Of a stretch of DNA of 37,950 nucleotides, positions 12,691 through 34,750 are shown piece by piece. The notes under the pieces are model-generated. The model made no database searches, had not been told where the DNA came from, and saw nothing but the letters and a program-made list of their open reading frames with translations. A program made the translations under genes and the position numbers. The stretch's first letter is position 1; each line of letters begins with the position of its first letter. Origin of the DNA: Gammaproteobacteria bacterium (GTDB lineage: Bacteria > Pseudomonadota > Gammaproteobacteria > SZUA-152); contig JAKISS010000026.1 of the NCBI GenBank assembly GCA_021648485.1, forward strand, positions 1 through 37,950, in the 5' to 3' direction.

Positions 12691-15600
12691 ATGTCAGGGA
12701 AAGCAGAAGACTGTAAAGACAAATATATATGGAATCGAGAAGAGCCCCAGCCTATTGCGGTTCCGCTTCCTGAGTATCATGCACAACACAACACCGATGT
12801 GGATAGTGATGATTATGGTTTTATTGGGAGGGAAGATTTAACAAAAGAACTCATAATGGTTTTGAATGCAACAGAGAGGGCGCGCGGTTGTTATCTTATC
12901 TCTGGTTATCGTGGCTCAGGTAAAACGAGTTTAATAAATCGAGTACTTTCTCTGTATAACAAAACATCCAAACAACCAAATTGGTTTCCTTTAAACAATT
13001 CAGAAAAAACAACGCTAAAACATCTGATTCGAGAAGGAAAAAGGAAAACGTATGAGACCGTTCAGCATCAAGCAGATAAGCAAAAATTAGACTGGTTTTG
13101 CCATAAAATAACTGGATTTTTTTCTACCTTCAGAACCAGGTTTAGGCACTTTAGAAGAGAGAATTTTTCCTTTTTTCCTCTCGTTTCTGTCAAAGTGAAT
13201 CTTGGTTATGACCAATTGCTGGAGCCGAAGGAAGTGTTGTTTAATACCACAACGCTATTGTATGGAGCCCTTAAAAGAAAAAGGCAATGGTATGCCGTTG
13301 CAGGATATGCGTTATTAATCGTTGTTTTGGCTCTTTTTATTACACTAAATTCCTCACTGGAAGCGCATCCTAAAGAAAGTATGTTTTTTGGTCTTGGCGC
13401 ATGGCTTCAAAGTCTGACAGGCTATAAAAACTTCCTGACTGTAACAGATCAAAAATGGGTTTTCCTAGCTTTCGGGATTGTTGGTTTCCATTATTTGCGG
13501 ACACGAGTGCTTCCGAGCTATTCGCGTGTATTACATCGATTAAAAAACCTCAATAAACGAATGGCATCTACTCTGGAAATAAACAGTGGCATAAAGAACA
13601 GAAGTTTTACATTTGGCACGAAAGAAACCATGCCTGCACTGGATGTTCGCCAAATTGAAAATGAATTGCTTGAGGTTTTAGAAGATTGTCGAAAAATCCC
13701 CTGGTTCTTCGTTAAACCCAATGTTGTGTTCATCTTTGATGAGTTGGATAAAATATCAAATCACAGCTCAAGTAATGTAAAAAAAGCTGAGTCACAACTT
13801 TCAGCTGAACGAGATTTATATGAACGAAAACAAAAGGTAGACTCTCTTCTGGGGGCGCTTAAAAACTTTATTACTCATGGCCAAGCCCGGTTTTTCTTTA
13901 TTGCAGGCCGAGAAATGTTAGACAGCTATCAAGCGGAAAGAGGTAGCACCAGTTCTCTTTATGAAAGCTTATTTAATAAAACATTCGAAGTTCCCAGCTT
14001 GCTTACAGATTCGTCAGATAAAAACTCACACGTAATGCATAGCCTATTAGAAGTTTTCGTGTGTCGAAAGTTGATAGACCCGAAGATAGCAATCTATTTA
14101 TGGCTACAGGATACGAACAATCACAGTAGTGATGATCCATATTGGGAGAACGACCTGTATAGAAAGCTACAGTATTCACCTTTTTGCCTTCGTACTTATT
14201 ACCATTACCTTTGTATGCTGCCTGACATTAAAGGAGTTGAAGCCCGTCGTATTGTACTAGGGCTTCGTAACTTTATTCAATTCCTGACAGTGCATTCATG
14301 GGGGAATCCCAAGAGAGTGATATCATTGTTCGAGCATTTCACCAAGCCTGTAGAAAGTGTCGATTGGCGTCAAAAAGAAAACATTAAAAAAATTTCACCA
14401 TTAAAAAAAATAAATTTAATGCTGCAATTTGGGCTTTTGGATCAACAGCGCATACTGTTAGCGTCCAATTTATATACACACCTTTCTCATGACCTGGGAA
14501 GGCAGCTTACTAACAGTGGTGATAAGCTTACGGTTTCTGCGATGGCGGCATTTCAGTATATTCTAAAATTCCACCGCCATCCATTCAGCCGGTATCATCT
14601 TGAGCGTATGTCGGAAGCATTGAATGTCTATCGTTCACCTGAGCTTAATGTGATCATAGACACACTAGTATCCAAGGTTCTGCATTCACAAATTCGACGC
14701 ATTCGTAATAGTCATTACCGTTATCGTTTCAATGGTGATTTTGAACAAGAGTTGCGTTATATCTCGCGAATAAGTGATATTGAGTCTGCGGCATTTAATT
14801 TTTCATTAGATGCTTCCGCCCCCATTAAATCCCATTATCTCAATCAATTAAATCGATTAATGCAGTATGGTGAAGAAGATGAAACAACCGGATTTCGATT
14901 GTTTGGTAAAAGTGAAATCGGGATTTATGAGCTTTGCTTAATTCTCGGGGATTTATATGCATTAGAACAGTCGCTTGATCAGGCGATTGTTTATTACCAA
15001 AGAGCAGTTGATATTTTCGAGAATTGTACGGAAGAATACTTTATTAAATTCGCTCACTTATCTGTTAAGGCATTATTGCGCCTTGGTGAAACATATGAAC
15101 AGAGGCAGCGGTACGATCAAGCAGCGAATGCCTATCTTCGAGCCCGTTCTATAGTAAACAAGCTGGGTAAATCAAAGCGGTTTGAATGGGAAAATGCACT
15201 TAAAGATGGAGATTCAAAATGGGATGTTTTTCGGCAGCCATTTTGGGCTTATTGGTTCCTTCAACTCAAACGTAGTCCGGTGTCATCCAGGGGAAAATTA
15301 CCACCCAAAAGCGAATACCCATTTACAAAAGGAATAGATGATCCTGTTAATCACTATCGAGCAGGACAATTGGCTTTTTTCTATAGCTGTCACTATACGG
15401 CTGTTGGTAGTTTTGTTAAGGCTATTCAATGTAGTGGTATAGAAGAGGCTAATACTGAAAAAACGACTTATCTGGGTGCTTATGCTTACCTTCATCTCGG
15501 TGAAAATATATTTTCAGGCATGATGCGTTATCTTATGGTGCGTGATTTACAACAAACAACTACTGATTTGAATGGATTGAAAATTCAGGTTAATAAATTT

Positions 15601-17235
15601 CTGAAAACTATTCTGAAAACAATTAAAGGGATGGAAAACATATCTAGCCTTGATGATCTTGAAAAAGCGTTTTCTGGAAACAAAAATCAATATATGAGGG
15701 AGCTTAAGAAGATCAAAAGTCAAACATCTTTCCTTGATAAGGTTGATGTATGTAAAACATTGGCAATGATGGTTTATGCGGCCAGACTAATGAGTGATCG
15801 AGGTTTACATTACCATGCTTCTTTAGCTTATATGAAGGTACTTTCTATTTGGGGTATGTTCGCTGAAACACTATTTTCACTCACAGAAATAGACGGCGAC
15901 AATAAGGCGAGACTGAATAAAGGAAAGCCTCATCAAGCCTCTAGTTCCGTAGACTCTAGTTCCGTAGACTCTAGTTCCGTAGACTCTAGTTCCGTAGACT
16001 CTGTTTTAAGAAAATCTGAATGCTGGATTTCAGAAATCAGGGAGTGTGCTGCTGAAAATATTACTGATTTTTCATTAGAGGGGTATAGTCGTTTTCATAC
16101 TCGCTGGAAACTTCAAGACGTTGCCTCTCCACTTAAAGAAGGCACAAAAACAACTTCGGACGGTCATGAATTATCAAAATTTCTCACTAATGAATGGGTA
16201 AATAATATTAAGCCCATATTTGAAGAACAGGAAAAAGCAAAACCTGATTTTGATTTAGATGAAAACATTGTATCCGGTTTCGAACTAAAAAATATGCTCA
16301 ATCTGTTGTTTCCAAAAATAAAAAATAACGAAATACGATCTTACGTGAAAGAAAAAGTTGAATCTTATGTAGCGGAAAAAATTAAAGGGGGCAGTGAAGT
16401 TACTAGAGAAGATCGATTAAAATATAAAAATGAAGTCATAAATAAATGCTGTTTTAAACAAACTATCAATGCTCCAATATTTATGCAGCGATCAATGATG
16501 GGGCAAAAACTAATTTATTTTGCAATTTGGGAATATATGTCAAAGATTCGGTTTCGTACGAAACGCAAACCGATGACAATTTCACATGAAACAATGGTTC
16601 CTCACAGTACACGTAGCCTGTTATTTTCACATTGGTTAGCAGGGAGGCGATATTTACAGTGGTCAATTTTAGATAAATTGCCAGAATTAACAAATCCTAA
16701 TGAGGAAGAAATAAAAGACCTCTATGATTCAGTTGCTGCTGCAATACACAATTTTCATCGATCCATTTATTACATGAAGCAGCTTACCGGTAATGATCAG
16801 GATCTTATATTTCCTGACCCTTCCATGATTTTTTATGATTTGTGGCAGCTTCTTTATGCTTTGGTAAAATTTGAAATAAAAATACGAGAGAAGACGTTTG
16901 AATTTGCTGTTAATCATGTGAAAAAAGAACTTTCATCCTCAAAGCTTCGTAACAATAACATAAGCACTAACTATTATGACTTTCATAGTATGAAGAGGCA
17001 GGCTACAAAACACCTTCGAGATATTGAACATTTAAATGACATTACCAATCGTGTCAGGTCCGATGCTATCAGGACTCGTGACTTTTTAGCAGATGACTAT
17101 GAAGATCCACGCTTTCATTTGGATTGGACGTTGATACAGATGTATGGCCCGGCTGCTGGGGTTCAAAGACGTTACATCACGTTGAAAAGCGAACAGTTAA
17201 AAACAGGTGATGATGCGGATAGAAGTGGTGAGTGA
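12691..17235 (+). CDS. Large membrane-anchored P-loop NTPase (KAP/STAND-like) with helical-repeat C-terminus
   Basis: 1514 residues. The ATPase module has Walker A GYRGSGKTS (72-80) after FIGREDL, Walker B VVFIFDELDK (345-354) and a following strand ARFFFIAGRE (399-408). Between the Walker motifs lie two hydrophobic segments (about 201-219 and 256-268), the membrane-hairpin insertion characteristic of KAP-type P-loop ATPases. After a winged-helix-like region (about 480-700) come TPR-like repeats (about 744-830: ELCLILGDLYALEQSLDQAI, LLRLGETYEQRQRYDQAANA). The rest is helical and unlike anything I recognise, with a 4x5-residue SSSVD repeat at 1084-1103. Such sensor-NTPase architectures are common among bacterial antiphage and conflict proteins, so defence is a reasonable inference, but no effector domain is identifiable. 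It is single-gene, AT-rich, bracketed by direct repeats and close to mobile remnants. An AGAG lies 13 bases upstream of the ATG. Confidence 0.85.
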   Translation: MSGKAEDCKDKYIWNREEPQPIAVPLPEYHAQHNTDVDSDDYGFIGREDLTKELIMVLNATERARGCYLISGYRGSGKTSLINRVLSLYNKTSKQPNWFPLNNSEKTTLKHLIREGKRKTYETVQHQADKQKLDWFCHKITGFFSTFRTRFRHFRRENFSFFPLVSVKVNLGYDQLLEPKEVLFNTTTLLYGALKRKRQWYAVAGYALLIVVLALFITLNSSLEAHPKESMFFGLGAWLQSLTGYKNFLTVTDQKWVFLAFGIVGFHYLRTRVLPSYSRVLHRLKNLNKRMASTLEINSGIKNRSFTFGTKETMPALDVRQIENELLEVLEDCRKIPWFFVKPNVVFIFDELDKISNHSSSNVKKAESQLSAERDLYERKQKVDSLLGALKNFITHGQARFFFIAGREMLDSYQAERGSTSSLYESLFNKTFEVPSLLTDSSDKNSHVMHSLLEVFVCRKLIDPKIAIYLWLQDTNNHSSDDPYWENDLYRKLQYSPFCLRTYYHYLCMLPDIKGVEARRIVLGLRNFIQFLTVHSWGNPKRVISLFEHFTKPVESVDWRQKENIKKISPLKKINLMLQFGLLDQQRILLASNLYTHLSHDLGRQLTNSGDKLTVSAMAAFQYILKFHRHPFSRYHLERMSEALNVYRSPELNVIIDTLVSKVLHSQIRRIRNSHYRYRFNGDFEQELRYISRISDIESAAFNFSLDASAPIKSHYLNQLNRLMQYGEEDETTGFRLFGKSEIGIYELCLILGDLYALEQSLDQAIVYYQRAVDIFENCTEEYFIKFAHLSVKALLRLGETYEQRQRYDQAANAYLRARSIVNKLGKSKRFEWENALKDGDSKWDVFRQPFWAYWFLQLKRSPVSSRGKLPPKSEYPFTKGIDDPVNHYRAGQLAFFYSCHYTAVGSFVKAIQCSGIEEANTEKTTYLGAYAYLHLGENIFSGMMRYLMVRDLQQTTTDLNGLKIQVNKFLKTILKTIKGMENISSLDDLEKAFSGNKNQYMRELKKIKSQTSFLDKVDVCKTLAMMVYAARLMSDRGLHYHASLAYMKVLSIWGMFAETLFSLTEIDGDNKARLNKGKPHQASSSVDSSSVDSSSVDSSSVDSVLRKSECWISEIRECAAENITDFSLEGYSRFHTRWKLQDVASPLKEGTKTTSDGHELSKFLTNEWVNNIKPIFEEQEKAKPDFDLDENIVSGFELKNMLNLLFPKIKNNEIRSYVKEKVESYVAEKIKGGSEVTREDRLKYKNEVINKCCFKQTINAPIFMQRSMMGQKLIYFAIWEYMSKIRFRTKRKPMTISHETMVPHSTRSLLFSHWLAGRRYLQWSILDKLPELTNPNEEEIKDLYDSVAAAIHNFHRSIYYMKQLTGNDQDLIFPDPSMIFYDLWQLLYALVKFEIKIREKTFEFAVNHVKKELSSSKLRNNNISTNYYDFHSMKRQATKHLRDIEHLNDITNRVRSDAIRTRDFLADDYEDPRFHLDWTLIQMYGPAAGVQRRYITLKSEQLKTGDDADRSGE
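15940..15999 (+). repeat. In-frame 15-base tandem repeat (4 copies)
   Basis: TCTAGTTCCGTAGAC is repeated four times without a mismatch at 15940, 15955, 15970 and 15985, encoding Ser-Ser-Val-Asp-Ser units inside the large NTPase. The unit is a multiple of three, so copy-number changes alter linker length without breaking the frame. Perfect identity implies recent expansion. Confidence 0.9.
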
Positions 17236-17954: not shown

Positions 17955-17979
17955 ATGAAATGCCACTACTTCCTAGTGG
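17955..17979 (-). terminator. Weak terminator at the end of the FHA/pilus-ATPase unit
   Basis: On the minus strand CCACTA-GGAAG-TAGTGG (17963-17979) forms a six-base-pair stem overlapping the stop codon of the last FHA gene, followed by the T-rich CATTTCATTTTG. The stem is short, so termination may be partial. Confidence 0.4.
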
Positions 17980-18650
17980 ATAAAATAAAACTCGACTTCA
18001 AAGCCGGAAATACTGATGACATCTTCCGGCTTGAGGGTGATGGCTGCTGGGCCGAGCTTTTCACCATTGAGCAGAACTTTGTCTGATGAGCGGCGGCTTT
18101 TTGTGGGGGTCACCGGGCTGATGGTGTAGTCTTCCAGACCCCGGCTGATTAGCGCCATTTTATGGCCTTGAAAACCGATGGTGCTGAATGGCTTACGCAG
18201 CTCCATTATGGTTCGCGTCAGTGGGCCGTTGAGTGTTCGCAGGCCGGCCAGTGGTTGCCCTTTGATGCTTTCTGCGCGGGATTCCCAGTCCGGTAGTACC
18301 ATTTGGGTTTCATCCAGTTCGGCTTTGATAAACATGGTGGGTTCATACTGGGTGTTGCCTTCGGTGAGGAAGGTGAATTGGTGGTGTCCCATCTGGATAA
18401 TGTCGCCGTGCCTAAGGGTCACTTTTTTGATGTGGTTGCCGTTGACCAGGGTGCCGTTGGTACTGCCAAGGTCTTCAACAAAGACCTGGTCTGGTTGTGT
18501 TTGGCTGATCATGGCGTGACGACCGCTGACGGTCAGGTCGTTTAACTGGATGTCGTTGGTGTGTTTGCGACCGACACTGAGTGTTTCCGTTTCCAGTGAA
18601 TTCTCATTGATGATTTCACCGTCCAGTGTGAGGATGAGTTTACTGTTCAT
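17973..18650 (-). CDS. FHA-domain protein (phosphothreonine reader), last gene of the cluster
   Basis: 225 residues, cytosolic. A canonical FHA domain fills residues 5-95: LSVGRKHTNDIQLNDLTVSG (Arg28), SGRH (42-45) and LGSTNGTLVNG (61-71), the residues that bind phosphothreonine peptides. The C-terminal half (about 140-225) looks like a second, degenerate FHA-like sandwich (FSTIGFQGHKMALISRG, VLLNGEKLG, EDVISISGFEVEFYF) without the GR/SxRH/NG set. It is a paralogue of the upstream FHA gene (18755-19561), sharing both halves. It lies 104 bases after that gene on the same strand as two PilT-like ATPases and a kinase, so its ligand is plausibly a protein phosphorylated by that kinase. Confidence 0.9.
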   Translation of the reverse strand: MNSKLILTLDGEIINENSLETETLSVGRKHTNDIQLNDLTVSGRHAMISQTQPDQVFVEDLGSTNGTLVNGNHIKKVTLRHGDIIQMGHHQFTFLTEGNTQYEPTMFIKAELDETQMVLPDWESRAESIKGQPLAGLRTLNGPLTRTIMELRKPFSTIGFQGHKMALISRGLEDYTISPVTPTKSRRSSDKVLLNGEKLGPAAITLKPEDVISISGFEVEFYFIH

Positions 18651-18754
18651 GCAGGCAATATTCCTTGCGAGGTGTTGGCGGGGCAGAGTGGCTAATGAAG
18701 TGTTGTTGCCGGAGTTATTTAATCAACGATACTTTAACTTTTAATTTTTAACCT

Positions 18755-19561
18755 TTAGCTCAGATAATAAAATTGTATTTCAAATCCGGCGATATTGATA
18801 ATGTCGCCTTCACTTAATAAAAACTGTTCGGTGCCCAGCTCTTTTCCATTGATTCGTGGTATGTCGCTGGCCCGGCGGCTGCGGGTGCCGATAACTGAGG
18901 TGATGCTGTAGCCTTCTGAGCCGCGTGTGATCAGGGCCATGCGTTTGCCTTGAAAGCCGATGGTGTTGTAGGTTTTGCGCAATTCCATGACGGGTTTTGG
19001 GATATGCCCATCCACTGTGCGCAGGCCGGCCAGGGCGAGGCCGGTGATCAGTGCCTGATTGATTTCGTTATCGTAAATAAATTGTGTGTCATCCAGTTCC
19101 GCTTTTACAAACATGGTGGGTTCATAGCGGGTTTCCGGTTCACACATGTAGGTGAGCTGGTGGTGGCCAACCTGGATAATGTCGCCGTGCTCAAGTGCAA
19201 TTTTTTTCACATGATTGCCATTGACCAGGGTGCCGTTGGTGCTGCCCAGGTCTTCGATGAAGACATAATCGGGGATGCTGGAAATCAGTGCGTGGCGTCC
19301 GCTGAGGGTTAAATCGTTTAACTGGATGTCATTACCATGTTTGCGGCCAATACTCAGGTTTTGCTGGCCGATGGAAAATTCTTGAAGAATTTTACCTTCC
19401 AGGGTGAGAATCAGCTTGCGTTCCGGTTCAATAACACTGGCAGGTGCTGTTTGTTGCGTCAGTTGCTCATGTTCCGGTGATACGGGATGTGTTTCATCCA
19501 GCTTGGACAGGGTGGTGACATTATTGGAATTTGCTGGCTGATGTTGGGTCGGTTGAGTCAT
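18755..19561 (-). CDS. FHA-domain protein with N-terminal extension
   Basis: 268 residues. The first 45 residues are a polar, Gln/Thr/Pro-rich tail containing several Thr-Pro/Thr-Gln sites that could be kinase targets (inference). The FHA domain follows (47-140) with Arg73 in LSIGRKHGND, SGRH at 88-91 and LGSTNGTLVNG at 105-115. A degenerate second FHA-like half runs from about 175 to 268 (YNTIGFQGKRMALITRG). It is clearly a duplicate of the downstream FHA gene. Its start lies inside the 3' end of the PilT-like gene (41-base overlap), implying tight cotranscription and translational coupling with the motor protein. Confidence 0.9.
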   Translation of the reverse strand: MTQPTQHQPANSNNVTTLSKLDETHPVSPEHEQLTQQTAPASVIEPERKLILTLEGKILQEFSIGQQNLSIGRKHGNDIQLNDLTLSGRHALISSIPDYVFIEDLGSTNGTLVNGNHVKKIALEHGDIIQVGHHQLTYMCEPETRYEPTMFVKAELDDTQFIYDNEINQALITGLALAGLRTVDGHIPKPVMELRKTYNTIGFQGKRMALITRGSEGYSITSVIGTRSRRASDIPRINGKELGTEQFLLSEGDIINIAGFEIQFYYLS

Positions 19562-20618
19562 CTTGTTCCCTATATTGTTCGAAGTTCGATTTCAGCCGGG
19601 CCTTTCGATAGGCTTCTTCGCCGGTGATCAGTTTTTCGTCGAGCAAACGGCGTAATGCAGTGTCAATATTTTGCATACCTTGCAAGGCACCACCCTGCAT
19701 CACATTTTCCAATTGTTCGGTTTTACCCTCGCGGATAATGTTGGAAGCAGCCGAATTATTGACCAGAGTTTCCACGGCTGCAAGTCGGCCACGATTATCG
19801 GCGGTTTTCACCAGCTGTTGGGAGATAACTCCACACAGTGAAGTTGATAGCATGGCACGAATATAAGGCTCTTCGCCAGGTGGGAATACGTTGATTATCC
19901 GGTCGATGGCGGCGGCGGCTCCATTGGTGTGCAGGGTGGCCAGAATCAGGATACCCATTTCTGCGGCGGTGACTGCGAGACTGATGGTGTCCAGGTCGCG
20001 CATTTCTCCGACGAGGATAACGTCGGGGTCTTCGCGCAGGGCGGAGCGCAGGGCAGAGGCGAAGCTGTCTGTATGGTCGCCGACTTCACGTTGGCTGATC
20101 AGGCAGCCTTTGGGCATGTGGACATGTTCCACGGGGTCTTCGATGGTAATGATGTGGCCTTTGCGTTCGCGATTGATGAAATCAATCATGGCTGCAAGGG
20201 TGGTGGATTTGCCTGAGCCGGTGGGGCCGACGACCAGAATCAGTCCTTTACGTTGCCGGGCCAGTGTTTTGAGCACGGCGGGCATGTTCAGGGTGTCCAG
20301 GTCGGTGACGGCGCTGGGGATGGCTCGGAACACGGCACCCATGCCGCCGAGGTGGCGAAAGACGTTGACGCGAAAACGTGATATGCCGGGTATTTCATAG
20401 CTAAAGTCGGCCCCCCCCAGTTTTTCAAAGGTGTGCTTGACTCGTTCCGGCATGATCTCAAACAGCAGGCTTTGGGTTTCACTTTCGGTCAGCTCACGGT
20501 ATTTAACCGGGTGGATTTCACCGTAAAGGCGGATGCGCGGTGGGTTGCCGGAGACCAGATGCAGGTCGGACCCGGATTGTTTGATCAGCAGTTCAAGAAA
20601 GGCGTTGACGCGGCTCAT
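19521..20618 (-). CDS. PilT/PilU-family type IV pilus retraction ATPase (paralogue 1)
   Basis: 365 residues, close to PilT length. It is a hexameric secretion-type ATPase acting at the inner-membrane base of type IV pili to power retraction. N-terminal PAS-like domain: SDLHLVSGNPPRIRLYGEI. Walker A is GPTGSGKST (131-139), the Asp box is TIEDPVEHVH (about 157-166), Walker B is DPDVILVGEMRD (about 194-205) and the His box LATLHTN (about 227-233). The C-terminal AASNIIREGKTEQL resembles the PilT AIRNLIRE motif needed for twitching. The tail (DDSTDPTSASKFQ) overlaps the FHA gene. It is distinct from, and additional to, any housekeeping pilT-pilU pair. Confidence 0.92.
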   Translation of the reverse strand: MSRVNAFLELLIKQSGSDLHLVSGNPPRIRLYGEIHPVKYRELTESETQSLLFEIMPERVKHTFEKLGGADFSYEIPGISRFRVNVFRHLGGMGAVFRAIPSAVTDLDTLNMPAVLKTLARQRKGLILVVGPTGSGKSTTLAAMIDFINRERKGHIITIEDPVEHVHMPKGCLISQREVGDHTDSFASALRSALREDPDVILVGEMRDLDTISLAVTAAEMGILILATLHTNGAAAAIDRIINVFPPGEEPYIRAMLSTSLCGVISQQLVKTADNRGRLAAVETLVNNSAASNIIREGKTEQLENVMQGGALQGMQNIDTALRRLLDEKLITGEEAYRKARLKSNFEQYREQDDSTDPTSASKFQ

Positions 20619-20635
20619 GAGTGGGTGCTCATTAT

Positions 20636-21730
20636 TCAGCTGACAGCCAGGTCAATCTGCGGCAGCAGATCCGGGTTTGTGACAAAGCGTTGGAATTGTT
20701 GTTTGTTGGTGGCGTGCAGGTAGGCGTCATCGGGGTCAATTTCTTTGTTTTGAAGTGCTTCTAACAGTGCCTGGTCCATGGTTTGCATGCCTTTGTCACG
20801 CCCGGTTTGCAATATGGAGGGAATCTGGAAAATTTTGCCGGTGCTGATGAGGTTGGCGATGGCGGGGGTATTGATGAACACTTCTACAATGGCTTTGCGA
20901 CTGCGTCCGTCCACAGTTTTTACCAGTTTCTGGCTGATGACTCCCTGTAAATGTTGAGCAAGAAAGCTGGTGGTCTGGGTCTTTTGTTCGGTGGGGGTGG
21001 CGTCGATAATGCGGTCCAGGGTTTTGGTGGCCGAGGTGGTATGCAGAGTGCCCAATACCAGATGGCCGGTTTCGGCGGCGGTCATGGCCATGATGATGGT
21101 TTCCGGGTCGCGCAGTTCGCCTACCAGAATCACGTCAGGGTCTTCGCGAAGGGCGGCGCGCAGGCCATTGGCGAAGGTATCGACATGGGTACCGATTTCA
21201 CGTTGGACCACGAGGGATTTCTGGCTGTGGTGGATGTATTCGATGGGGTCTTCGAGGGTGATGATATTCAGCCGACGGTTGCGGTTGAGCCGATCCAGCA
21301 TAGAGGCCAGGGTGGTGGACTTGCCGGTTCCTGTGGCTCCTGTGACTAATACCAGTCCTTGATGGGCATCGATAAATTTTTCGACGATGGGGGGCATGCC
21401 CAGATCATGCAGGGAGGGGATGTCGGTGTTCACCAGCCGGAAAGCGGCACCCACGCCGCTGACTTTGCGAAACAGGCTGACGCGAAATCGTCCTACATCG
21501 TCACTTTGGTAGGCAAAGTCGATGTCCTGGCCATTGTCGAAATCGGTTTTTTGCTGACGGTTCAGTATTTCGATGATCAGGCTTTCCAGTTCCTGATCGG
21601 TGAGATCCCGGTATTTAATGGGAATAAGGTCGCCCAGATTGCGTAGTAAGGGCGGCATGCCGACGGCAAAATGGATGTCGGTGCAGCCTTGTTCGCGGCC
21701 AAGCTTGAGGAAGGCGTCGATTCTGGCCAT
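20636..21730 (-). CDS. PilT/PilU-family type IV pilus retraction ATPase (paralogue 2)
   Basis: 364 residues. N-terminal domain CTDIHFAVGMPPLLRNLGDL; Walker A GATGTGKST (131-139); Asp box TLEDPIEYIHH; Walker B DPDVILVGELRDPET; His box LGTLHTTSATKTLDRI. The C-terminus has AIANLISTGKIFQI and GMQTMDQALLEAL, the conserved PilT ending, with the AIRNLIRE box altered to AIANLIST. It starts immediately after the kinase stop codon and ends 17 bases before the second ATPase, so the pair is cotranscribed with the kinase. Paralogue 1 and this protein are only moderately similar, so they may form hetero-motors as PilT with PilU do. Confidence 0.92.
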   Translation of the reverse strand: MARIDAFLKLGREQGCTDIHFAVGMPPLLRNLGDLIPIKYRDLTDQELESLIIEILNRQQKTDFDNGQDIDFAYQSDDVGRFRVSLFRKVSGVGAAFRLVNTDIPSLHDLGMPPIVEKFIDAHQGLVLVTGATGTGKSTTLASMLDRLNRNRRLNIITLEDPIEYIHHSQKSLVVQREIGTHVDTFANGLRAALREDPDVILVGELRDPETIIMAMTAAETGHLVLGTLHTTSATKTLDRIIDATPTEQKTQTTSFLAQHLQGVISQKLVKTVDGRSRKAIVEVFINTPAIANLISTGKIFQIPSILQTGRDKGMQTMDQALLEALQNKEIDPDDAYLHATNKQQFQRFVTNPDLLPQIDLAVS

Positions 21731-24277
21731 TCAGAGAGTCTCCAGCACAGTTTCCAGTTTTTCACGCAATTCGTCAAAAGTCTGAAACCGTTGTTCGGGG
21801 TTGACGGCCATGGCTTTGATGATAACAGCCTCCAGTGATTCGGGCAGCTCCGGGTTGATCTTTCGCGGTGGCGTTGCCGAGCCTTCCACATGCTGAAACA
21901 GGATGGCCATGGATTCGTCACCGGTGTAGGGGGCTGCACCGACAAACATTTCATAGAGAATGATGCCCAATGTGTAGATGTCGGTACGTGAATCAATGGT
22001 GCGGCCACGTACTTGTTCGGGAGCCATGTAGGTGGGAGTGCCGACCAGAATACCGCTTTTGGTGAGCCGCGAATCTGCTTTGCGTGCGGCGGCGGCAAGA
22101 CCGAAGTCAACGATCTTCACCAGGTCGTCATCGTTAATCAGAATGTTTGCGGGTTTGAGGTCGCGATGTACCACGCCCATGGTTTGTGCCTGGGCCATGC
22201 CACGACAAATGCTGCATAGCAATTGAATGCCTCGATGAATCTCACAGGTCTGTTTTTGTTTTTTGCGTTTATTCAGTTCGTCGGCCAGGGAATGGCTGGG
22301 GAAGTATTCCATGGAAATGGCGTAGGACTGATCAATGGTGACCAGGTCATAAATACGAATAATGTTTTCGTGGGTGATCTTGCGGGCATAGCGTAACTCG
22401 TGCATGAAACGTTCGATCATACTTTGGTCAGCGGCCACATGCGGGTTGAGAAATTTGAGAATAAACTGGTCGCCCACCATGACATCTTCCACCAGCCACA
22501 CGACACCAAAGGCACCTTCGCCGATTTTACGAATAACGTGATAGCGATCTGCGAGCACAGTGTTGGGGGCCAGGCGTGAGGGGTCAAAAATATGGGTGAA
22601 GTGCTGGCCGTCATCACCCCGGGTGGTTGTGCCGCCGGATGATGTGAACGAGCCACTGGTATGCATGGCTTGCGTTTGTCCGGAGGTGTTGGCCATCGGG
22701 GAGCTGCTGAAACTCAATGTAGGCTGGTCCTGGGTATCTATTTCCTCTTCCTCCGCTTTTTCCATCGGAGTGGACGATGCGGGATTGTCGATAAAGGTGG
22801 CACTGTGAGCAGTTGTTCCATTGGTGCGATCTCCAAAACGCATGATCAGGCTTTGCATGGTTTCGTTGGCGATGGTGCGCAGATCACTGGTACGTGAGGT
22901 GGTTAGCTGGGTTGTCGCTTCTTGTACTCGTTGTGCGTTGCTGTCATCAGTCAGGGTTTCCAGAGCCCGTAGTGCTTCTTTGCGCAAGGCGTTATTGGTG
23001 TTGTCGAGTTGTTTGAGCAGGGGAGTGACGGCTTGTTTGTCGCCCAGGGTGGCCAGGGCGCGTATGACCACTTGACCGGCTTCCGGGTTTTCTTCCATCA
23101 TGGTGACCAGATGTGGTACAGCGCGGGTGTCGCCGATAGCCGCCAGGGCATCCACGGCACGCTCCCGTACCCACCAGTCTTCATCGCGCAGGGCTTCAAT
23201 GAGCCGGTCCACGGCACGCGGGTCTTTGCTGGTGTTGAGGATTTCCACGGCGGTGCGGCGCAAAAACTCATCTTTGTCGGTAATCAGGGCGAGCACGGCA
23301 TCAAATACTTTGGGCCCACCGATGGCACCCAGCGCGTCGGCGGCACGCACTTTCACCCACCAGTCCACATCGCGCAGGGCATTGAGCAGGTCTTTTACGG
23401 CGTTTTGATCACCCACTTCATTGAGTACTTCCACGGCGGCGCGACGTACGTATTCGGATTCATCCTGCAATACGGTAATCAGGTGTTTGACTGTGTGAGG
23501 TGAGCGAATTTTGGCCAGAGTTTCGATGGCGGCTGATTGCACGGTGAGGTCACTATCGCTTAACAGGGCGCAGATATCACCGACATTTTCTGTGGCGTGG
23601 AGCCTGGCCAGACCATTGAGTGCTGCCTGGCGTACGGCCTTGTTGGGGTCATTCAGTGCTTTGACCAGTCCTTCGCGGCTGGGGGCTGTGTCAAAGCGGG
23701 ACAACAGTTGAAGAAGGTGCGCGCGCACCAGTGGCTGATTGCTGTCGAGTCGTTGACTGATATCGGGTACCAGTGTTTCGTTGGCGATATCATCCAGCAG
23801 GCGATATAAAATGGGCCGTACCTTGCTGTCTACCTGGTCCAGCAGACCCAGTAACAGGTTGGCATTGATGCGTTCGGCGTGGGCAGTGAGCACTTTCCCC
23901 AAGGCCGTTTTGGAGACTTCCTCGCCATCCACAGGCTGGCTGAAGTAGGGGAATAATTCGTTGGGGTTAAAGTCCTGGGCACGTTTGAGTACACGGGTCA
24001 CGCCATCGATGATGCGCTGGTCACCATGGGCGAGCCCCACCAGAAACAGTGGCAGGCTGCGGTTGCGCACAAAACCTACTAACAGTTGTTCCAGCGTGGC
24101 GGTGTGCTGGGGGTTTTCCAACGCTTCAATGAGTTTGGGAATCGCGGCCTCGCCAATGTGTTTGAGTTTGTACAGGGCACGTTTGCCTTCTGCCGTGGCT
24201 CCGGCATCCTCGGCGAGGAGGGTGGCAATGGCACGACCGGTTTTGAAGTCGGACAGCAGACTCACGAACCGCTCCAT
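21731..24277 (-). CDS. HEAT-repeat / Ser-Thr protein kinase fusion
   Basis: 848 residues. Residues about 20-480 form a run of HEAT/PBS-lyase-like repeats (e.g. NALRDVDWWVKVRAADALGA, EALRDEDWWVRERAVDALAA), a large protein-binding solenoid. A low-complexity, Thr/Ser-rich linker (about 490-565) follows, then a complete Hanks-type kinase from about 575: RKIGEGAFGVV glycine loop, ILKF Lys (about 607), VVHRDLKPANIL catalytic loop (about 703), VDFGLA (about 724), VGTPTYMAPEQV activation end (about 750) and SRTDIYTLG. No transmembrane helix, so it is a cytosolic kinase, unlike PknB-type receptors. It opens the minus-strand unit of motors and FHA readers; the linker Thr residues could be autophosphorylation sites recognised by those FHA domains (inference). 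The ribosome binding site is weak. Confidence 0.93.
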   Translation of the reverse strand: MERFVSLLSDFKTGRAIATLLAEDAGATAEGKRALYKLKHIGEAAIPKLIEALENPQHTATLEQLLVGFVRNRSLPLFLVGLAHGDQRIIDGVTRVLKRAQDFNPNELFPYFSQPVDGEEVSKTALGKVLTAHAERINANLLLGLLDQVDSKVRPILYRLLDDIANETLVPDISQRLDSNQPLVRAHLLQLLSRFDTAPSREGLVKALNDPNKAVRQAALNGLARLHATENVGDICALLSDSDLTVQSAAIETLAKIRSPHTVKHLITVLQDESEYVRRAAVEVLNEVGDQNAVKDLLNALRDVDWWVKVRAADALGAIGGPKVFDAVLALITDKDEFLRRTAVEILNTSKDPRAVDRLIEALRDEDWWVRERAVDALAAIGDTRAVPHLVTMMEENPEAGQVVIRALATLGDKQAVTPLLKQLDNTNNALRKEALRALETLTDDSNAQRVQEATTQLTTSRTSDLRTIANETMQSLIMRFGDRTNGTTAHSATFIDNPASSTPMEKAEEEEIDTQDQPTLSFSSSPMANTSGQTQAMHTSGSFTSSGGTTTRGDDGQHFTHIFDPSRLAPNTVLADRYHVIRKIGEGAFGVVWLVEDVMVGDQFILKFLNPHVAADQSMIERFMHELRYARKITHENIIRIYDLVTIDQSYAISMEYFPSHSLADELNKRKKQKQTCEIHRGIQLLCSICRGMAQAQTMGVVHRDLKPANILINDDDLVKIVDFGLAAAARKADSRLTKSGILVGTPTYMAPEQVRGRTIDSRTDIYTLGIILYEMFVGAAPYTGDESMAILFQHVEGSATPPRKINPELPESLEAVIIKAMAVNPEQRFQTFDELREKLETVLETL

Positions 24278-24521
24278 GGGCCATGGGTGGGCGAGGCAGT
24301 GAAAGGCAGGAAAGGCAAAATGAAGACCACGGGAAAGACCTAGTACTCCGCCCTGGTGATACGGACGGACTCCGCTGACCTGTCAGCCCGCAGGGCGCTA
24401 TTGACAGTCGCTTTTTTAAGAGAGAAACAAAATGCAGTTCCGGGTGCTGACAGGCCAACCCTTCGGGCGTGTTTGTTACATTCTGCAACGCTGAGCCCGT
24501 GCATATCACCTGAGCGGAGCA
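24278..24521. other. Unassigned intergenic region between two minus-strand genes
   Basis: This 244-base gap contains moderate-GC sequence with short open frames on both strands (24340-24522 minus, 24356-24568 plus) that lack ribosome binding sites and family resemblance. A GGCCAACCCTTCGGGCGTGT stretch (about 24452-24471) looks like a dispersed repeat rather than a gene, but I see no second copy in the window. The promoter of the kinase operon should lie here. Confidence 0.4.
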
Positions 24522-25049
24522 CTAGCCTGCTTCCTGGGTTTCAGTATGAGTGGTACCGATGTCATTAACATGAACGTGATTGATGTACGATTTGTTAATG
24601 AGATAAATCAGTCCGTCTTCCATGTGTATTTTGATGAAAGCTTCGTCATTGCGATTCAGGTAATCCAGCAGACGGGCGTGACTGGGTGGCAGGGATTCAT
24701 GAATGCTGCCATCGATGTATGAGCCATCCATTAACTGCAAGTGACAGTGCATAGGGGTATTTGTACTGTCGTTGCTGACGGCTTCATCCTCTTCCGTGGT
24801 TTCGTATTCGATACGAATCACTGATTTTATGTTATAGAATCGCAGCTCAGCAGGTTCGTCGCGATTAAATACCAGAAAACTCTCGCAGGCATTCAACACT
24901 TCGAGAGGTTGTTCGCTGCCTGCATGGTGTGGACTTTGAGTGCGCAGATAAATGGAACCGACAACGCGACCTTCCGGGTGTACCCAGAGAGTGACGGGGC
25001 GGAGTTTTTTGGGTACTTTCAGAGTATTGTTAAGAGTATCGTTATCCAC
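24522..25049 (-). CDS. Conserved hypothetical protein of the signalling cluster
   Basis: 175 residues, cytosolic, acidic in the middle (YETTEEDEAVSNDSTN). It appears to contain two related beta-rich halves: residues about 15-80 (LRPVTLWVHPEGRVVGSIYL, then FLVFNRDEPAELRFYNIKSV) and about 98-165 (MHCHLQLMDGSYIDGSIHES, then AFIKIHMEDGLIYLINKSYI). Both have the form substrate-facing strand, G-S-I turn, then a strand ending in N-K/IKS-hydrophobic, so an internal duplication of a small barrel is likely. I recognise no named family. It is the gene nearest the divergent promoter region facing the FHA-GAF-HD-GYP gene, and 244 bases upstream of the kinase on the same strand. Confidence 0.75.
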   Translation of the reverse strand: MDNDTLNNTLKVPKKLRPVTLWVHPEGRVVGSIYLRTQSPHHAGSEQPLEVLNACESFLVFNRDEPAELRFYNIKSVIRIEYETTEEDEAVSNDSTNTPMHCHLQLMDGSYIDGSIHESLPPSHARLLDYLNRNDEAFIKIHMEDGLIYLINKSYINHVHVNDIGTTHTETQEAG

Positions 25050-25060
25050 AGCCTGTCCTT

Positions 25061-25072
25061 TGTGTTAACACA
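25061..25072. promoter_or_regulatory. 12-base perfect palindrome upstream of the hypothetical gene
   Basis: TGTGTTAACACA lies 11 bases before the minus-strand start codon at 25049, inside the 222-base divergent region with the FHA-GAF-HD-GYP gene. A site so close to the start would block transcription or translation of the minus-strand gene when bound. The regulator is unknown; the match could also be chance. Confidence 0.4.
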
Positions 25073-25271
25073 GGTCTACATTACATACGTAAACCTGCCG
25101 ACCTATTATACGCCAGTTATGCCAGAGCGTTTGTGTCAAAACACCCGTTTGTTTCTGTTTTTCATCTCTGCGCAATATAGCGACCGGAATACACGAAACA
25201 TATAGCAGCTATTGCTTCTATGGGACAGGCTGGTTACCTTCTGACACTATATCACCTATATACGAGTCAAT

Positions 25272-27332
25272 ATGAACGACGATCAATCCCAACAACCGGC
25301 AGCAGCCTATCTGGAAATCCTTAACGGGTCTTTAGTGGGCACCCGTTTTCTGTTAGGGACAGAGACCATTATCGGGCGTGATGACGAGGATGTGCCGATG
25401 CAGGAAGGGGGTATTGATCTGGCCGATACCCGGGTAAGCCGTAGGCATGCGCGTATTTATACCCAGCGTGGCCGGTATTATCTGGAGGATTGCAATTCCA
25501 CTAACGGTACCTTTCTCAACACGTTTCGTTTACAGCCGGGCGCGCCTTGTATTTTACGCGAGGGCAGTAATGTGCAAGTGGGAGGAGTGCATATGCGCTT
25601 TCGACCGACGCTGAACCCGGCAGAAACATCTGGCGACAGCAATGCTGCTGCACCCTGGGCATCCGAAATTGGCTTGAATGAAGAAATATTTGATTTATCG
25701 CTCACGGCTAACCCGGACGCGAGTGCATCACAGGCCAATATCTCCATGTTGTTTTGCCCGGTTGATTTTCCGGAGCCGGAGATCAGTGTGGTGTTGGATG
25801 CCCCGGCAGTGGTGGATGCCTTGCGGGAGGCAATAACGGATAATGAAAACGCATCAGAGAGTGATGATCTGCGCCGTTTGCGGGCCATGGCACAGGTCAG
25901 CATCGGCCTCGGTGGGGAACATGACCGGGAATCGCTGTTCGCCAAAATTATGGATTTTATTTTTGTCATTTTTCCCACCGCTGAGCGTGCCTTTGTGGTC
26001 TTGCGTGATAAAGAATCCCAGGAATTCAAACCCGCTGCGGCTTCCACACGTGAGCCGTCCGGGGAAGGAGAAGTGCTGGCGCTGTCAGAGGCTATTGTTG
26101 ATGAAGTAGTGAGCCAGCAGCGCAGTATTTTGTCCAACGACGCGGCAGATGATCACCGGTTTGACGATCAGCAGTCTATCCGGCGTTTGGGTATTCGCAG
26201 CATGATGTGCGTACCGTTGCTGGTGAACAACGAGGTCATGGGGCTGATTCAGATTGATACGCACAGAAAAACACATTCTTTTTGTGAAGAGGATTTACAA
26301 ATTCTCACGGGCATTGGTGCGCAGGTAGCCATTGCACTGAAAAACTTTGTGCTCTACGAAGATATTGGTCATTTATTTGAAAGCTTTGTCACCGCGTCGG
26401 TACATGCCATTGAAGCACGCGATCCTACCACCGCCGGTCATTCATTTCGCGTCGCTGAATATTCCCAGCATCTGGCGACTGTGGTGGATCAGTCCGAGCA
26501 GAAAATTTTACGGGATATTAATTTTAGCCGGGACCAGATGCGGGAGTTGCGTTATGCCTCATTGCTGCATGATTTTGGCAAGGTAGGTGTGCGTGAGCAT
26601 GTGCTGATTAAAGCGCGAAAACTGTATCATTCCGAAATGGATGTACTGGAAGAGCGATTTCGCTATGCATACGCCAGTCTGGAGCGGCAGGCATATCGCG
26701 AATTGATCGACCAGCATGGAGAATTATCGTCGGCAGAATTCAAATTGCGTCGTGCGGCCATGGAAAAACGTCTGTCCCGTGAAGCGGCTCAATTACAGCG
26801 GTTTATGGCCATGATTCAGCACGCGAATGAACCCTCGGTACTGGATGATGAAGTGACAGATGATTTACGTGCAGTAGCTGATTTTATTTTTCCCGGTAAC
26901 GATGGTGAGCATGTACAATTGCTCACTGCACCGGAGCTGGATGCGCTGACCCTGGCACGCGGCAGTTTAACACCGGTGGAGCGTCTGGAAATTCAGTCGC
27001 ATGTGAGTCACACGTTTGCTTTTTTGAGTCATATACCATGGACAGCGTCATTATCCGCTGTTGCCGATATTGCCCATGCCCATCACGAAAAACTGGATGG
27101 CACAGGCTATCCGCTGGGTCTGGTGGGGGATGAAATTCCTGTTCAATCACGCATTATGGCTGTGACAGATATTTTTGATGCGCTGACCGCAGGTGACCGG
27201 CCCTATAAATGCAGTTTGGGTGTGGATCAGGCGCTGGATATCCTGCATCATGAAGCCAGCACCGGTAAAATTGATCCGATTTTAGTCGATGTATTTATCG
27301 ACAGTCAGGGTTATCAATTGTTTAGCCAATAA
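25272..27332 (+). CDS. FHA - GAF - HD-GYP signalling protein (probable c-di-GMP phosphodiesterase)
   Basis: 686 residues, cytosolic. FHA domain at 10-115 (ETIIGRDDEDV, RVSRRHARI, CNSTNGTFLN). GAF domain about 195-365 (from LRRLRAMAQVSIGL to ILTGIGAQVAIALKN). HD-GYP domain about 370-680: ARDPTTAGHSFRVAEYS, HD pair H433-D434 in LLHDFGKVGVREHVL, HHEKLDGTGYP (604-614) and the following RIMAVTDIFDALTAGDRPY. The metal-binding His/Asp residues and the GYP triplet are kept, so hydrolysis of c-di-GMP to pGpG or GMP is expected. Between HD and GYP sits an insertion of roughly 100 residues rich in Glu/Arg/Leu helices, larger than in typical HD-GYP enzymes. The FHA head suggests recruitment by a phosphothreonine on a partner of the neighbouring kinase. 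Confidence 0.93.
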   Translation: MNDDQSQQPAAAYLEILNGSLVGTRFLLGTETIIGRDDEDVPMQEGGIDLADTRVSRRHARIYTQRGRYYLEDCNSTNGTFLNTFRLQPGAPCILREGSNVQVGGVHMRFRPTLNPAETSGDSNAAAPWASEIGLNEEIFDLSLTANPDASASQANISMLFCPVDFPEPEISVVLDAPAVVDALREAITDNENASESDDLRRLRAMAQVSIGLGGEHDRESLFAKIMDFIFVIFPTAERAFVVLRDKESQEFKPAAASTREPSGEGEVLALSEAIVDEVVSQQRSILSNDAADDHRFDDQQSIRRLGIRSMMCVPLLVNNEVMGLIQIDTHRKTHSFCEEDLQILTGIGAQVAIALKNFVLYEDIGHLFESFVTASVHAIEARDPTTAGHSFRVAEYSQHLATVVDQSEQKILRDINFSRDQMRELRYASLLHDFGKVGVREHVLIKARKLYHSEMDVLEERFRYAYASLERQAYRELIDQHGELSSAEFKLRRAAMEKRLSREAAQLQRFMAMIQHANEPSVLDDEVTDDLRAVADFIFPGNDGEHVQLLTAPELDALTLARGSLTPVERLEIQSHVSHTFAFLSHIPWTASLSAVADIAHAHHEKLDGTGYPLGLVGDEIPVQSRIMAVTDIFDALTAGDRPYKCSLGVDQALDILHHEASTGKIDPILVDVFIDSQGYQLFSQ

Positions 27333-27370
27333 GCATTTTTTTGGTTACTACAACAACGAGAAATTAATTT

Positions 27371-28096
27371 ATGGCATTTAGTACCTGTGGACACGTTACC
27401 CATGTGGGTAACGTGCGCACGCATAATGAAGATTGTTATGAAGTGGATGCTGATGCCAACTTTTGCGTACTGGCCGATGGTATGGGCGGTCACGAAGGTG
27501 GCGAGATTGCCAGTCGCATTGTGGTGGATTGTGTCAGCCGTGAAATTCGTAACGGTAAACCCATGGCCGAAGCACTGGTGCAGGCGCATTATGCTGTGCG
27601 CAAGGCAGTGGATAATGGGGAAGGTAAACCCGGCATGGGTTCTACCGCCGTGGCGTTAAAGCTGGAAAATGGTTATTTTGATGTAGTGTGGGTGGGGGAC
27701 AGTCGTGCCTATGTATGGGATGGTACGCAGCTCACGCAAATCACCAAAGATCACTCACTGGTACAGCATATGGTGGATGAGGGCCGCATTACACCCGAAG
27801 AAGCTCTGGTACATCCGCAACGCAATTACATTACCCAGGCGATTGGCATGTCTGACTTGTACAAAATGGAAGTAGGGCGTGTACAGGGTCGCCTGCAACA
27901 TGGTCAGCAATTATTGTTATGCAGTGACGGATTATCCGGTGAAGTATCGACCGGGGAGATGATCGAAATCCTTCAGCTGGACCTGAATGAAAGCCAAAAA
28001 GTGGATTTGATGATTCAGAAATCACTGGACAATGGTGGTGCTGATAATGTTACCGCATTATTGGTGACGGCTGTTGTTAGCCCGGATATTTCGTAA
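27371..28096 (+). CDS. PP2C-family Ser/Thr protein phosphatase (Stp/PppA-like)
   Basis: 241 residues, the length of bacterial Stp1/PppA enzymes. All metal-binding motifs are present: VRTHNEDCYEVD (about 15-26), VLADGMGGHEGGEIAS (about 33-48), VVWVGDSRAYVWDG (about 103-116), CSDGLSGEV (about 180-188) and GGADNVTALLV (about 224-234). It removes phosphate from Ser/Thr with two Mg/Mn ions in the cytosol. It follows the FHA-GAF-HD-GYP gene by 38 bases with AACGAGAAATT upstream of the ATG, so they form one operon. It is the natural antagonist of the HEAT-kinase encoded divergently. Confidence 0.95.
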   Translation: MAFSTCGHVTHVGNVRTHNEDCYEVDADANFCVLADGMGGHEGGEIASRIVVDCVSREIRNGKPMAEALVQAHYAVRKAVDNGEGKPGMGSTAVALKLENGYFDVVWVGDSRAYVWDGTQLTQITKDHSLVQHMVDEGRITPEEALVHPQRNYITQAIGMSDLYKMEVGRVQGRLQHGQQLLLCSDGLSGEVSTGEMIEILQLDLNESQKVDLMIQKSLDNGGADNVTALLVTAVVSPDIS

Positions 28097-30872: not shown

Positions 30873-31358
30873 ATGACACAGCAACACGCTTTAGTGGAAA
30901 GCCAACTCAACACCCCGCGCCGAGGCATTATTAGAGACGTTACCGCAGACGGTATAATTCTCGTAGCAGATCAGCAACTGCCAGAGGTTCTCAGTCATTG
31001 TCACTTCCTGCGCACCAGTGCCGCATCACTGCCGGAACTCACCGCCGGTGATAAGGTGCTCTATCTTGCCGCCAGTGGTGATGAAACACTCGGTTGTGTG
31101 ATGGGTCTCGTGCAGCCCTACCAACAACGCCGCTCCGCATTAGCAGAAAAAACCGATGCGAAAGGCAATCTTCCCTCAACCACCCTTCTGGAAGACGAGG
31201 TAGTGAGAATCCGCGCCAATAAAGGCCTGATTATTGAATGTGGTAAAGGCTCCCTGATCATCAATGAAGACGGCAAGCTACAGCTAAAAGGTACCGAGCT
31301 GCTGAGTCGTGCATCAGGCATGAACCGCATCAAAGGGGCGGGGGTTAACATCAACTGA
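30873..31358 (+). CDS. DUF6484-type T6SS-associated protein
   Basis: 161 residues, first gene of the effector operon, with AAAGGAAAAGAAA before the ATG. The N-terminal half is a small beta-barrel (RRGIIRDVTADGIILVADQQ, then AGDKVLYLAASGDETLGCVM), and the C-terminal 60 residues form a short beta-helix-like stretch (VVRIRANKGLIIECGKGSLI) ending in KGAGVNIN, reminiscent of the VgrG needle tail. DUF6484 proteins are found beside DUF2169, DUF4150 and VgrG genes in T6SS effector loci. A role in fitting cargo to the spike tip is inferred. It is four bases from the DUF2169 gene. Confidence 0.8.
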   Translation: MTQQHALVESQLNTPRRGIIRDVTADGIILVADQQLPEVLSHCHFLRTSAASLPELTAGDKVLYLAASGDETLGCVMGLVQPYQQRRSALAEKTDAKGNLPSTTLLEDEVVRIRANKGLIIECGKGSLIINEDGKLQLKGTELLSRASGMNRIKGAGVNIN

Positions 31359-31362
31359 ACCT

Positions 31363-32418
31363 ATGGCCTATCAAGGACTCACCAACAACGCAAACTACAT
31401 TGCTGAACAGTACTTGCAACAGGATGAAAACGGTCGTGACCTGCTGATTATCATGGCCAAAGTCACCTATGCCTACGATGTTCAGGGTCGGTTATTCATG
31501 GCGGATGAGGCAGCACCTATCATCCCCGAGGGTGAATATTGGGCAGACCCCGAAAACAGCTCCCTTAAATACGCCCCGGAAGGGACATTTGCCAAACAAG
31601 CCACCGATATTGCCTTAATTGGCCATGCCTGCTCACCCGCAGCACAACCCACCCGTCAATTGGACGTGGGTTTACAAGTAGGCAACCTGAAAAAAATAGT
31701 CAAAGTATTCGGTGACCGTTATTGGGTGAAGAGTGCAGGAATGTTTGGCAGCCACTGGTCACACACCCAAGCCGAGCCTTTTAGCAAAATGCCACTGCTC
31801 TATGAGCGAGCCTTTGGTGGCGAAGACCTCACGCCAGCAGATCCCAAACACCACCGACACGAAGCGCGTAACCCGGTGGGCACCGGTATGATTGCCGACG
31901 AAAGCGCACTCAGCAAGGTCAAGTTACCCAATATAGAAATACCCCATCAGCTGATACAAGCGATTACCGATAGGCCCGAGCCAGCGGGGTTTGGTTTTAT
32001 TGCTCCCAATTGGCAGCCCAGAATGGCTGATGCGGGCCGTTACGACGCAGCATGGCAAAAAACACGGCTACCGCAACTGCCAAGTGATTTTAAGCGCCGC
32101 TTCTTTAATGCCGCCAGCCCAGGGTTAGTCGCTAATGGTTACCTGCTTGGCAATGAAGCCATTACCTTGCATCACCTCAATGCACACGGGCCGATCAGCT
32201 TCTACCTGCCCGGCCACAAACCAGCGATACACGTCGCCTTTGCCCGTGAAGCCGCACAGCCACTAGCGGTCAACCTCGATAGCCTGATTATTAACAGTGA
32301 TCAGCAAACCGTCGAACTTCTCTGGCGTGCCGAGCAGGATGTTTATCAACGCATCTATCAAATAGAAGCAGTCACCCTTACCAGCAGCCGGGTGATGCAA
32401 CAGCAGGCCATTGCCTGA
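31363..32418 (+). CDS. DUF2169-family T6SS effector adaptor
   Basis: 351 residues, typical for DUF2169, an adaptor/chaperone family that helps load cargo on PAAR/VgrG spikes. Recognisable parts: YLQQDENGRDLLIIMAKVTY, ATDIALIGHACSPAAQPTRQ with the LDVGLQVGNLKKIVKVFGDR strand region, PLLYERAFGG (about 144-153), ARNPVGTGM (about 169-177) and PAGFGFIAPNWQPR (about 207-220). No signal peptide or membrane segment. It sits between DUF6484 and the PAAR-like gene with gaps of 4 and 11 bases, a conserved order in T6SS effector islands, so it most likely serves the AHH toxin encoded downstream. Confidence 0.92.
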   Translation: MAYQGLTNNANYIAEQYLQQDENGRDLLIIMAKVTYAYDVQGRLFMADEAAPIIPEGEYWADPENSSLKYAPEGTFAKQATDIALIGHACSPAAQPTRQLDVGLQVGNLKKIVKVFGDRYWVKSAGMFGSHWSHTQAEPFSKMPLLYERAFGGEDLTPADPKHHRHEARNPVGTGMIADESALSKVKLPNIEIPHQLIQAITDRPEPAGFGFIAPNWQPRMADAGRYDAAWQKTRLPQLPSDFKRRFFNAASPGLVANGYLLGNEAITLHHLNAHGPISFYLPGHKPAIHVAFAREAAQPLAVNLDSLIINSDQQTVELLWRAEQDVYQRIYQIEAVTLTSSRVMQQQAIA

Positions 32419-32429
32419 AGGAGAACAAT

Positions 32430-32888: not shown

Positions 32889-32917
32889 ATCGTCATCAAC
32901 GAGTGAACTGATCAATC

Positions 32918-34054: not shown

Positions 34055-34063
34055 GGAAAAACA

Positions 34064-34730: not shown

Positions 34731-34750
34731 ATGAGAAGAAGGAAAACTAT

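Follow-up and report, generated by a model that had tools for sequence, protein, structure and literature searches.

The window analysed here is a 37,950-nucleotide stretch of DNA (positions 1-37,950 of contig JAKISS010000026.1, assembly GCA_021648485.1) from a Gammaproteobacteria bacterium (SZUA-152). It carries an eight-gene block at 17973-28096 in which a HEAT-repeat Ser/Thr kinase stands next to two PilT-family ATPases, PilT1 and PilT2 (Table 1). Gene 1 (Sm-like/DUF6812-related), the HEAT-kinase, PilT1 and PilT2 make up a core that recurs across about 19 gammaproteobacterial families, far beyond chance, and this cluster of two extra motors and a kinase is widespread in Gammaproteobacteria. 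Its composition suggests that cells switch the motors on and off by protein phosphorylation, and we put the probability at roughly 0.55 that its dedicated role is phosphothreonine control of an auxiliary PilT-type motor pair. The parts are of known kinds, and the combination is apparently new to us. Searches of the open literature (subscription literature was outside their scope) for PilT together with FHA, phosphothreonine or PP2C, and for DUF6812, found no description of the set, in agreement with the first-pass annotation, which knew of no named system with these genes.

The linkage of the core was followed in the window's order, which consists of one family (24 genomes scored, 19 loci fetched), and in 369 evenly drawn genomes of Gammaproteobacteria, from which 34 loci outside the window's family (the class loci) were compared. 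Within the order, gene 1 is present in 21 of the 24 genomes, and the series gene 1-kinase-PilT1-PilT2-FHA is unbroken in 15 of the 19 loci, the rest mostly stopping at contig borders. Across the class, 37 of the 369 genomes carry gene 1, in 28 genera and about 19 families. Gene 1-kinase-PilT1-PilT2 is contiguous and co-oriented in 27 of the 34 class loci (among these, PilT2 is frame-broken in L105 and contig-cut in L116), and the remaining seven stop at contig borders or masked bases. The relatives that carry names are hydrothermal-type and other Gammaproteobacteria metagenome-assembled genomes. Across 398 phylum genomes, the matches to gene 1 outside the class were all partial and DUF6812-like.

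When PilT1 was scored independently, 45 of the 369 genomes reached at least 601 bits, and a clear gap separated them from the next score, 447. Both gene 1 and PilT1 occur in 34 genomes, gene 1 only in 3, PilT1 only in 11 and neither in 321 (Fisher p=5.3e-35). The three genomes with gene 1 only are contig-border or masked cases and so are not proven losses. Eight of the 11 PilT1-only loci have a complete kinase-PilT1-PilT2 series, one is cut at the contig start and two lack an adjacent kinase. Because the trio persists in these loci, kinase-PilT1-PilT2 may be regarded as the minimal unit, with gene 1 as its usual companion; the link between motors and kinase is the tightest in the cluster. The first-pass annotation had treated all eight genes as one set, and joint conservation in related genomes held for the core but not for the FHA-GAF-HD-GYP gene, which is not universal. 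An apparent PilT loss in genome G306 allows no inference, since the kinase reading frame enters masked bases there, and the suspected fusion of gene 1 to the kinase was rejected: the 1054-aa frame in L017 is an open frame only, and the genes are separate in L036.

Both motors belong to the PilT family by profile, exceeding the curated cut-off of TIGR01420 (PilT/PilU family; 319.1 bits), and their Walker A and Walker B motifs are intact, as they are in most homologues. In a maximum-likelihood tree each of them forms a clade of its own, distinct from the other and from canonical PilT and PilU; the small number of 'other' rows within these clades are the same genes fetched twice. Canonical PilT identity was rejected for both on these clades and on a degenerate AIRNLIRE motif, and canonical PilU identity because they fall outside the PilU clade. 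The canonical PilT/PilU pair of this genome is on another contig (C50), adjoining a YggS-like gene (identified by eye), and the genome has two further PilT-like genes. Thus, of the earlier description as two PilT-family retraction motors, the family assignment stands, whereas retraction would follow by homology from proteins that are neither canonical PilT nor PilU. The C-terminal tail of PilT1, FVTxxxLLP, is conserved in nearly all PilT1 proteins listed and is specific to the clade. Its T351 was rejected as a phosphosite, being S, N or A in several homologues, and for this reason we propose the tail only as a possible docking tail.

The kinase has HEAT repeats at about residues 40-480 and a kinase domain at 579-833. 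Catalytic K608, HRD and DFG are kept in all 44 homologues (one has DYG), and T739 and T747 of the activation loop are conserved across the same 44. A phosphothreonine motif in the kinase linker was also considered and rejected: PTQ-like motifs occur in a few relatives, with no conservation.

In FHA_A, the phosphopeptide-binding residues R28, S42, H45, N65 and T67 are invariant in 41 of 41 FHA_A-type proteins, and the motif YEPTMF[IVL]KAExxxT sits between the FHA domain and the second domain, with T105 in 40 and T115 in all 41. The +3 residue is I, V or L in 41/41 after T105 and in 39/41 after T115. The AF2 model of FHA_A (22 sequences; pLDDT 74.5 for the whole model) is of low confidence across the linker (blocks of 55, 40 and 49), which is probably disordered; conservation of threonines in such a segment argues for a short motif. 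In a fold search with the N-terminal domain, GarA and OdhI were among the top matches and DgcB was further down. Against curated models the FHA scores lie far below both cut-offs, at 56 bits versus 200 for NF041660 (OdhI/GarA) and 58 versus 125 for FhaB. We predict from these sequence features that T105 and T115 could form a self-binding phospho-switch like those of GarA, OdhI and DgcB. An FHA gene follows PilT2 in 12 of the 34 class loci; L101 is a thirteenth, with an additional FHA gene nearby that scores weakly against FHA_A and FHA_B. FHA_B is a paralogue of FHA_A that only some members of the window's family have. Elsewhere in the window's genome, on contig C15 (L150, 7500-9617), a PilT-like gene adjoins one for an FHA protein whose C-terminal part has a hydrophobic segment, a second FHA-PilT pairing that is conserved in the genus relative L159. 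On contig C53 (L154, 5396-9115), a CHASE2-Ser/Thr kinase and a PP2C are accompanied by a small FHA protein whose last residues, FETTTVILPD, may be a phosphothreonine tail.

The enzymes around the core vary with lineage. The FHA-GAF-HD-GYP and PP2C genes stand divergently alongside the core in 15 of the 19 loci of the window's order, with broken or missing parts in L033 and L038. Among the 34 class loci outside the family, the former is adjacent in 4 and the latter in 8. The HD and HHExxDGxGYP motifs of HD-GYP phosphodiesterases are present in 20 of 20 homologues, which bears out the first-pass call of a cyclic di-GMP (c-di-GMP) hydrolase with intact catalytic residues, and the PP2C motifs NED/DGMGGH/SDG/DN are intact in 24 of 24. 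In a second lineage, a protein combining an adenylate/guanylate cyclase with an FHA domain adjoins PilT2, as confirmed by Pfam in L096, L099 and L106 and seen by sequence inspection in L208 and L214; it is split over two open reading frames (ORFs) in L105, and L107 has an FHA fragment. A third lineage has a PAS-GGDEF-EAL gene upstream (L116 and L117 by Pfam, L118 by homology), and some lineages have the core without any such neighbour. As a general claim, the proposal that FHA-GAF-HD-GYP lowers c-di-GMP at the pilus base is therefore unsupported; because the gene is not universal, a c-di-GMP arm would be at most a lineage-specific branch. Two nearly identical FHA-then-cyclase-like proteins are encoded on contigs C71 (L155, 3-905) and C76 (L156, 9352-10305) of the window's genome, in the reverse domain order of the cyclase-FHA proteins that adjoin PilT2.

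Gene 1 is tentatively a tandem Sm-like protein. Its AF2 model (pLDDT 88.9) shows two five-stranded barrels, one of which matched single Hfq subunits in Foldseek with a probability of 0.99 but an E value of about 0.1. Its matches to DUF6812 are weak yet consistent: 37 of 38 homologues match at E<=1 (best 4e-7), and the window's own copy, at 16.7 bits, is below the Pfam cut-off of 27.1. A PDB sequence search with gene 1 gave matches at chance level only.

How might such a module work? The sequences show which genes are present, that their catalytic residues are intact and their linkage conserved, that the motors form clades of their own and that the linker motif is conserved; from this we infer a series of phosphorylation, binding and pilus steps. 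Through its HEAT repeats, the HEAT-kinase may sense a partner or a state, and it would then phosphorylate threonines of the FHA protein linker. On the pattern of GarA, OdhI and DgcB, the FHA domain could bind a phosphothreonine, either its own or that of a neighbour, and this binding might alter its grip on PilT1/PilT2 hexamers, perhaps via the conserved PilT1 tail, or on the kinase. PP2C would reverse the phosphorylation and reset the switch. Depending on lineage, an FHA-bearing HD-GYP or adenylate cyclase tied to the same phospho-signal could link the state of the motors with a cyclic nucleotide. Most likely, PilT1 and PilT2 would tune retraction together with canonical PilT, in the manner of PilU. 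The original proposal was that the kinase marks itself or a motor, FHA proteins recruit partners and c-di-GMP is lowered; its kinase, motors and FHA reader are indeed a conserved unit, but its c-di-GMP arm is not universal. A more specific version, which we entertain as possible yet tentative, is that the HEAT-kinase directly phospho-regulates the dedicated motor pair, and that lineages swap one or another FHA-bearing enzyme, a c-di-GMP hydrolase or an adenylate cyclase, onto this signal, setting motor state and second messenger together.

The switching of PilT-type motors between idle and active is poorly understood, and a conserved operon with a Ser/Thr kinase and an FHA reader beside two motors would be a direct, genetically tractable handle on it. 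If the proposed control is real, type IV pilus (T4P) motors join the machines under bacterial phosphothreonine signalling. The swap between c-di-GMP and cyclic AMP-type enzymes, both FHA-bearing, would be a testable link from phospho-signalling to surface-sensing second messengers.

Several observations count against a phosphothreonine module acting on pilus motors. In many genomes with the core, neither an FHA nor a PP2C gene adjoins it, and a structural constraint could account for the conservation of the linker threonines. No pilin, PilB, PilC or PilQ gene lies within the cluster. AIRNLIRE is degenerate in both motors, reading AI(A/G)xLI in PilT1 and AxxN(I/L)(I/V/L)REGK in PilT2. Furthermore, PilB scores over its cut-off in 30 of 37 carriers versus 222 of 332 non-carriers, which is not significant (p=0.09), so the tie of the motors to the type IVa pilus (T4aP) is one of homology only. 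These points leave room for the same kinase control being exerted on motors that drive or gate another T4P-like or type II secretion system-like machine, or that act as regulatory ATPases, with no T4aP retraction. The separate clades and the retention of canonical PilT/PilU elsewhere in the genome would fit such a role. Even so, we think it unlikely: Walker A and B are mostly intact, the whole PilT profile is matched at 425-440 bits, over its curated cut-off, and a PilB-family match is found in all 37 of the class genomes that carry gene 1. It is also conceivable that the kinase chiefly controls gene expression or second-messenger levels, and that the motors are co-transcribed outputs, neither substrates nor partners. 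The FHA-bearing HD-GYP and adenylate cyclase neighbours point in this direction, and gene 1, being Sm/Hfq-like, makes an RNA-related role conceivable. But kinase-PilT1-PilT2 outlasts all cyclic-nucleotide neighbours across families, and the odds of this explanation seem distinctly poor.

Two known kinds of locus were also compared with the block. One, with the same enzyme classes, is the threonine phosphorylation pathway (TPP) of type VI secretion systems (T6SS; PpkA-PppA-Fha1), and T6SS-type effector genes do lie nearby (a PAAR-like/DUF2169 toxin locus at 30.9-35.2 kb). We rejected this as highly improbable, as only 9 of the 41 carriers have TssB, the other 32 lacking it, and no copy was found in the window's genome (86% complete); the FHA score is 35 bits against a TagH cut-off of 120, and the toxin locus is outside the conserved neighbourhood. 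Still less credible is a role in anti-phage defence, with the kinase being of PD-T4-6 or MADS type. Models for PD-T4-6 and mad6 do hit the kinase domain, and mad8 hits the motors weakly, but the kinase hits extend no further than this generic domain, a methylase or restriction partner is absent, and the family-wide conservation is stable, unlike that of defence islands. We continue to favour phosphothreonine control of an auxiliary PilT-type motor pair.

In the window itself, ORFs and family searches matched all eight genes that the first-pass annotation had placed, including the PilT1 start directly after the kinase stop and the 41-bp overlap of PilT2 and FHA_B. Its "continuous block" is right as to contiguity, but the genes form two divergent transcription units (six minus, two plus) and not a single operon. 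Promoter, terminator and Rfam scans gave nothing informative on the locus.

Table 1. Features of the eight-gene block, in window coordinates
Feature	Position	Strand	Description and evidence
FHA_A	17973-18650	-	N-terminal phosphothreonine-binding FHA and C-terminal beta-rich domain; Pfam FHA 3.8e-24
FHA_A linker motif YEPTMF[IVL]KAExxxT (T105, T115)	18294-18347	-	candidate phospho-switch; alignment of 41 proteins
FHA_B	18755-19561	-	N-terminal FHA, linker, C-terminal beta-rich domain; Pfam FHA 1.9e-20
FHA_B counterpart of linker motif	19073-19126	-	sequence, alignment with FHA_A
PilT2	19521-20618	-	second PilT-family ATPase, own clade; TIGR01420 440.3 bits
PilT1	20636-21730	-	PilT-family ATPase, own clade; TIGR01420 425.7 bits
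PilT1 C-terminal tail FVT[DN]x.[LI]LP	20639-20686	-	clade-specific conservation; possible docking site
HEAT-repeat/PknB-like Ser/Thr kinase	21731-24277	-	Pfam HEAT_2 2.5e-52, Pkinase 5.8e-50
Gene 1 (175 aa), two tandem Sm/Hfq-like barrels, DUF6812-related	24522-25049	-	usual first core gene
FHA-GAF-HD-GYP, c-di-GMP phosphodiesterase-type	25272-27332	+	Pfam; divergent accessory
PP2C (Stp1-type) phosphatase	27371-28096	+	Pfam PP2C_2 3.5e-13, Stp1 model 212.9 bits; divergent accessory

Outside the block, the window carries on its plus strand (30873-35224) genes for a DUF2169 protein, a Tox-PAAR-like protein, a ketosynthase-like protein and an AHH-family nuclease, with an Imm11 immunity gene. This is a T6SS-type antibacterial toxin-immunity locus, even though TssB was not found in the 86%-complete genome. 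A 1514-aa P-loop/AAA_16 protein is encoded at 12691-17235, also on the plus strand; it has TPR repeats and, by eye, predicted membrane segments, and PADLOC gave no match for it. Contig C15 additionally encodes (L150, 11396-18001) a LysM protein and large proteins that resemble phage-tail or contractile-injection baseplate parts by eye.

Control of a surface nanomachine by a kinase, a PP2C and an FHA protein is familiar from the T6SS threonine phosphorylation pathway (PpkA, PppA, Fha1); the enzyme classes are the same, but most carriers of the PilT cluster have no T6SS. In the Sulfolobus Arn network (ArnA FHA, ArnB vWA, kinases ArnC/D and PP2A), an FHA protein and Ser/Thr kinases regulate motility by a T4P-like machine (PMC6509490), though this network is archaeal, acts on archaellum expression and has an unrelated gene set. 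In Pseudomonas aeruginosa, an effect of Stk1 on twitching has been reported (PMC8560001). Two adjacent PilT-family ATPases recall PilT and PilU. The AIRNLIRE motif, a conserved feature of PilT, is missing from PilU, which works only by way of PilT (PMC6762196), so a PilT paralogue is able to act through PilT; PilT1 and PilT2 differ in their separate clades, in the degeneracy of the motif in both, in their link to a kinase and in the presence of a canonical pair in the same genome. In Bdellovibrio DgcB (FHA-GGDEF), recognition of a self threonine depends on a hydrophobic +3 residue (PMC6733907). Here, too, an FHA domain is tied to a c-di-GMP enzyme and the threonines have a hydrophobic +3 residue, but the enzyme is a phosphodiesterase or adenylate cyclase and adjoins a kinase, a phosphatase and motors. 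In GarA, the ETTS threonines lie in an unstructured extension, are phosphorylated and are bound by the protein's own FHA domain (PMC5448819). The motif here (EPTMF[IVL], with ETTS absent) follows the FHA domain and precedes a second domain, with PilT motors and not TCA-cycle enzymes as neighbours. What the present cluster has in common with GarA and OdhI is a PknB-like kinase, a near FHA fold and a conserved threonine with a hydrophobic +3 residue in a segment that is probably disordered.

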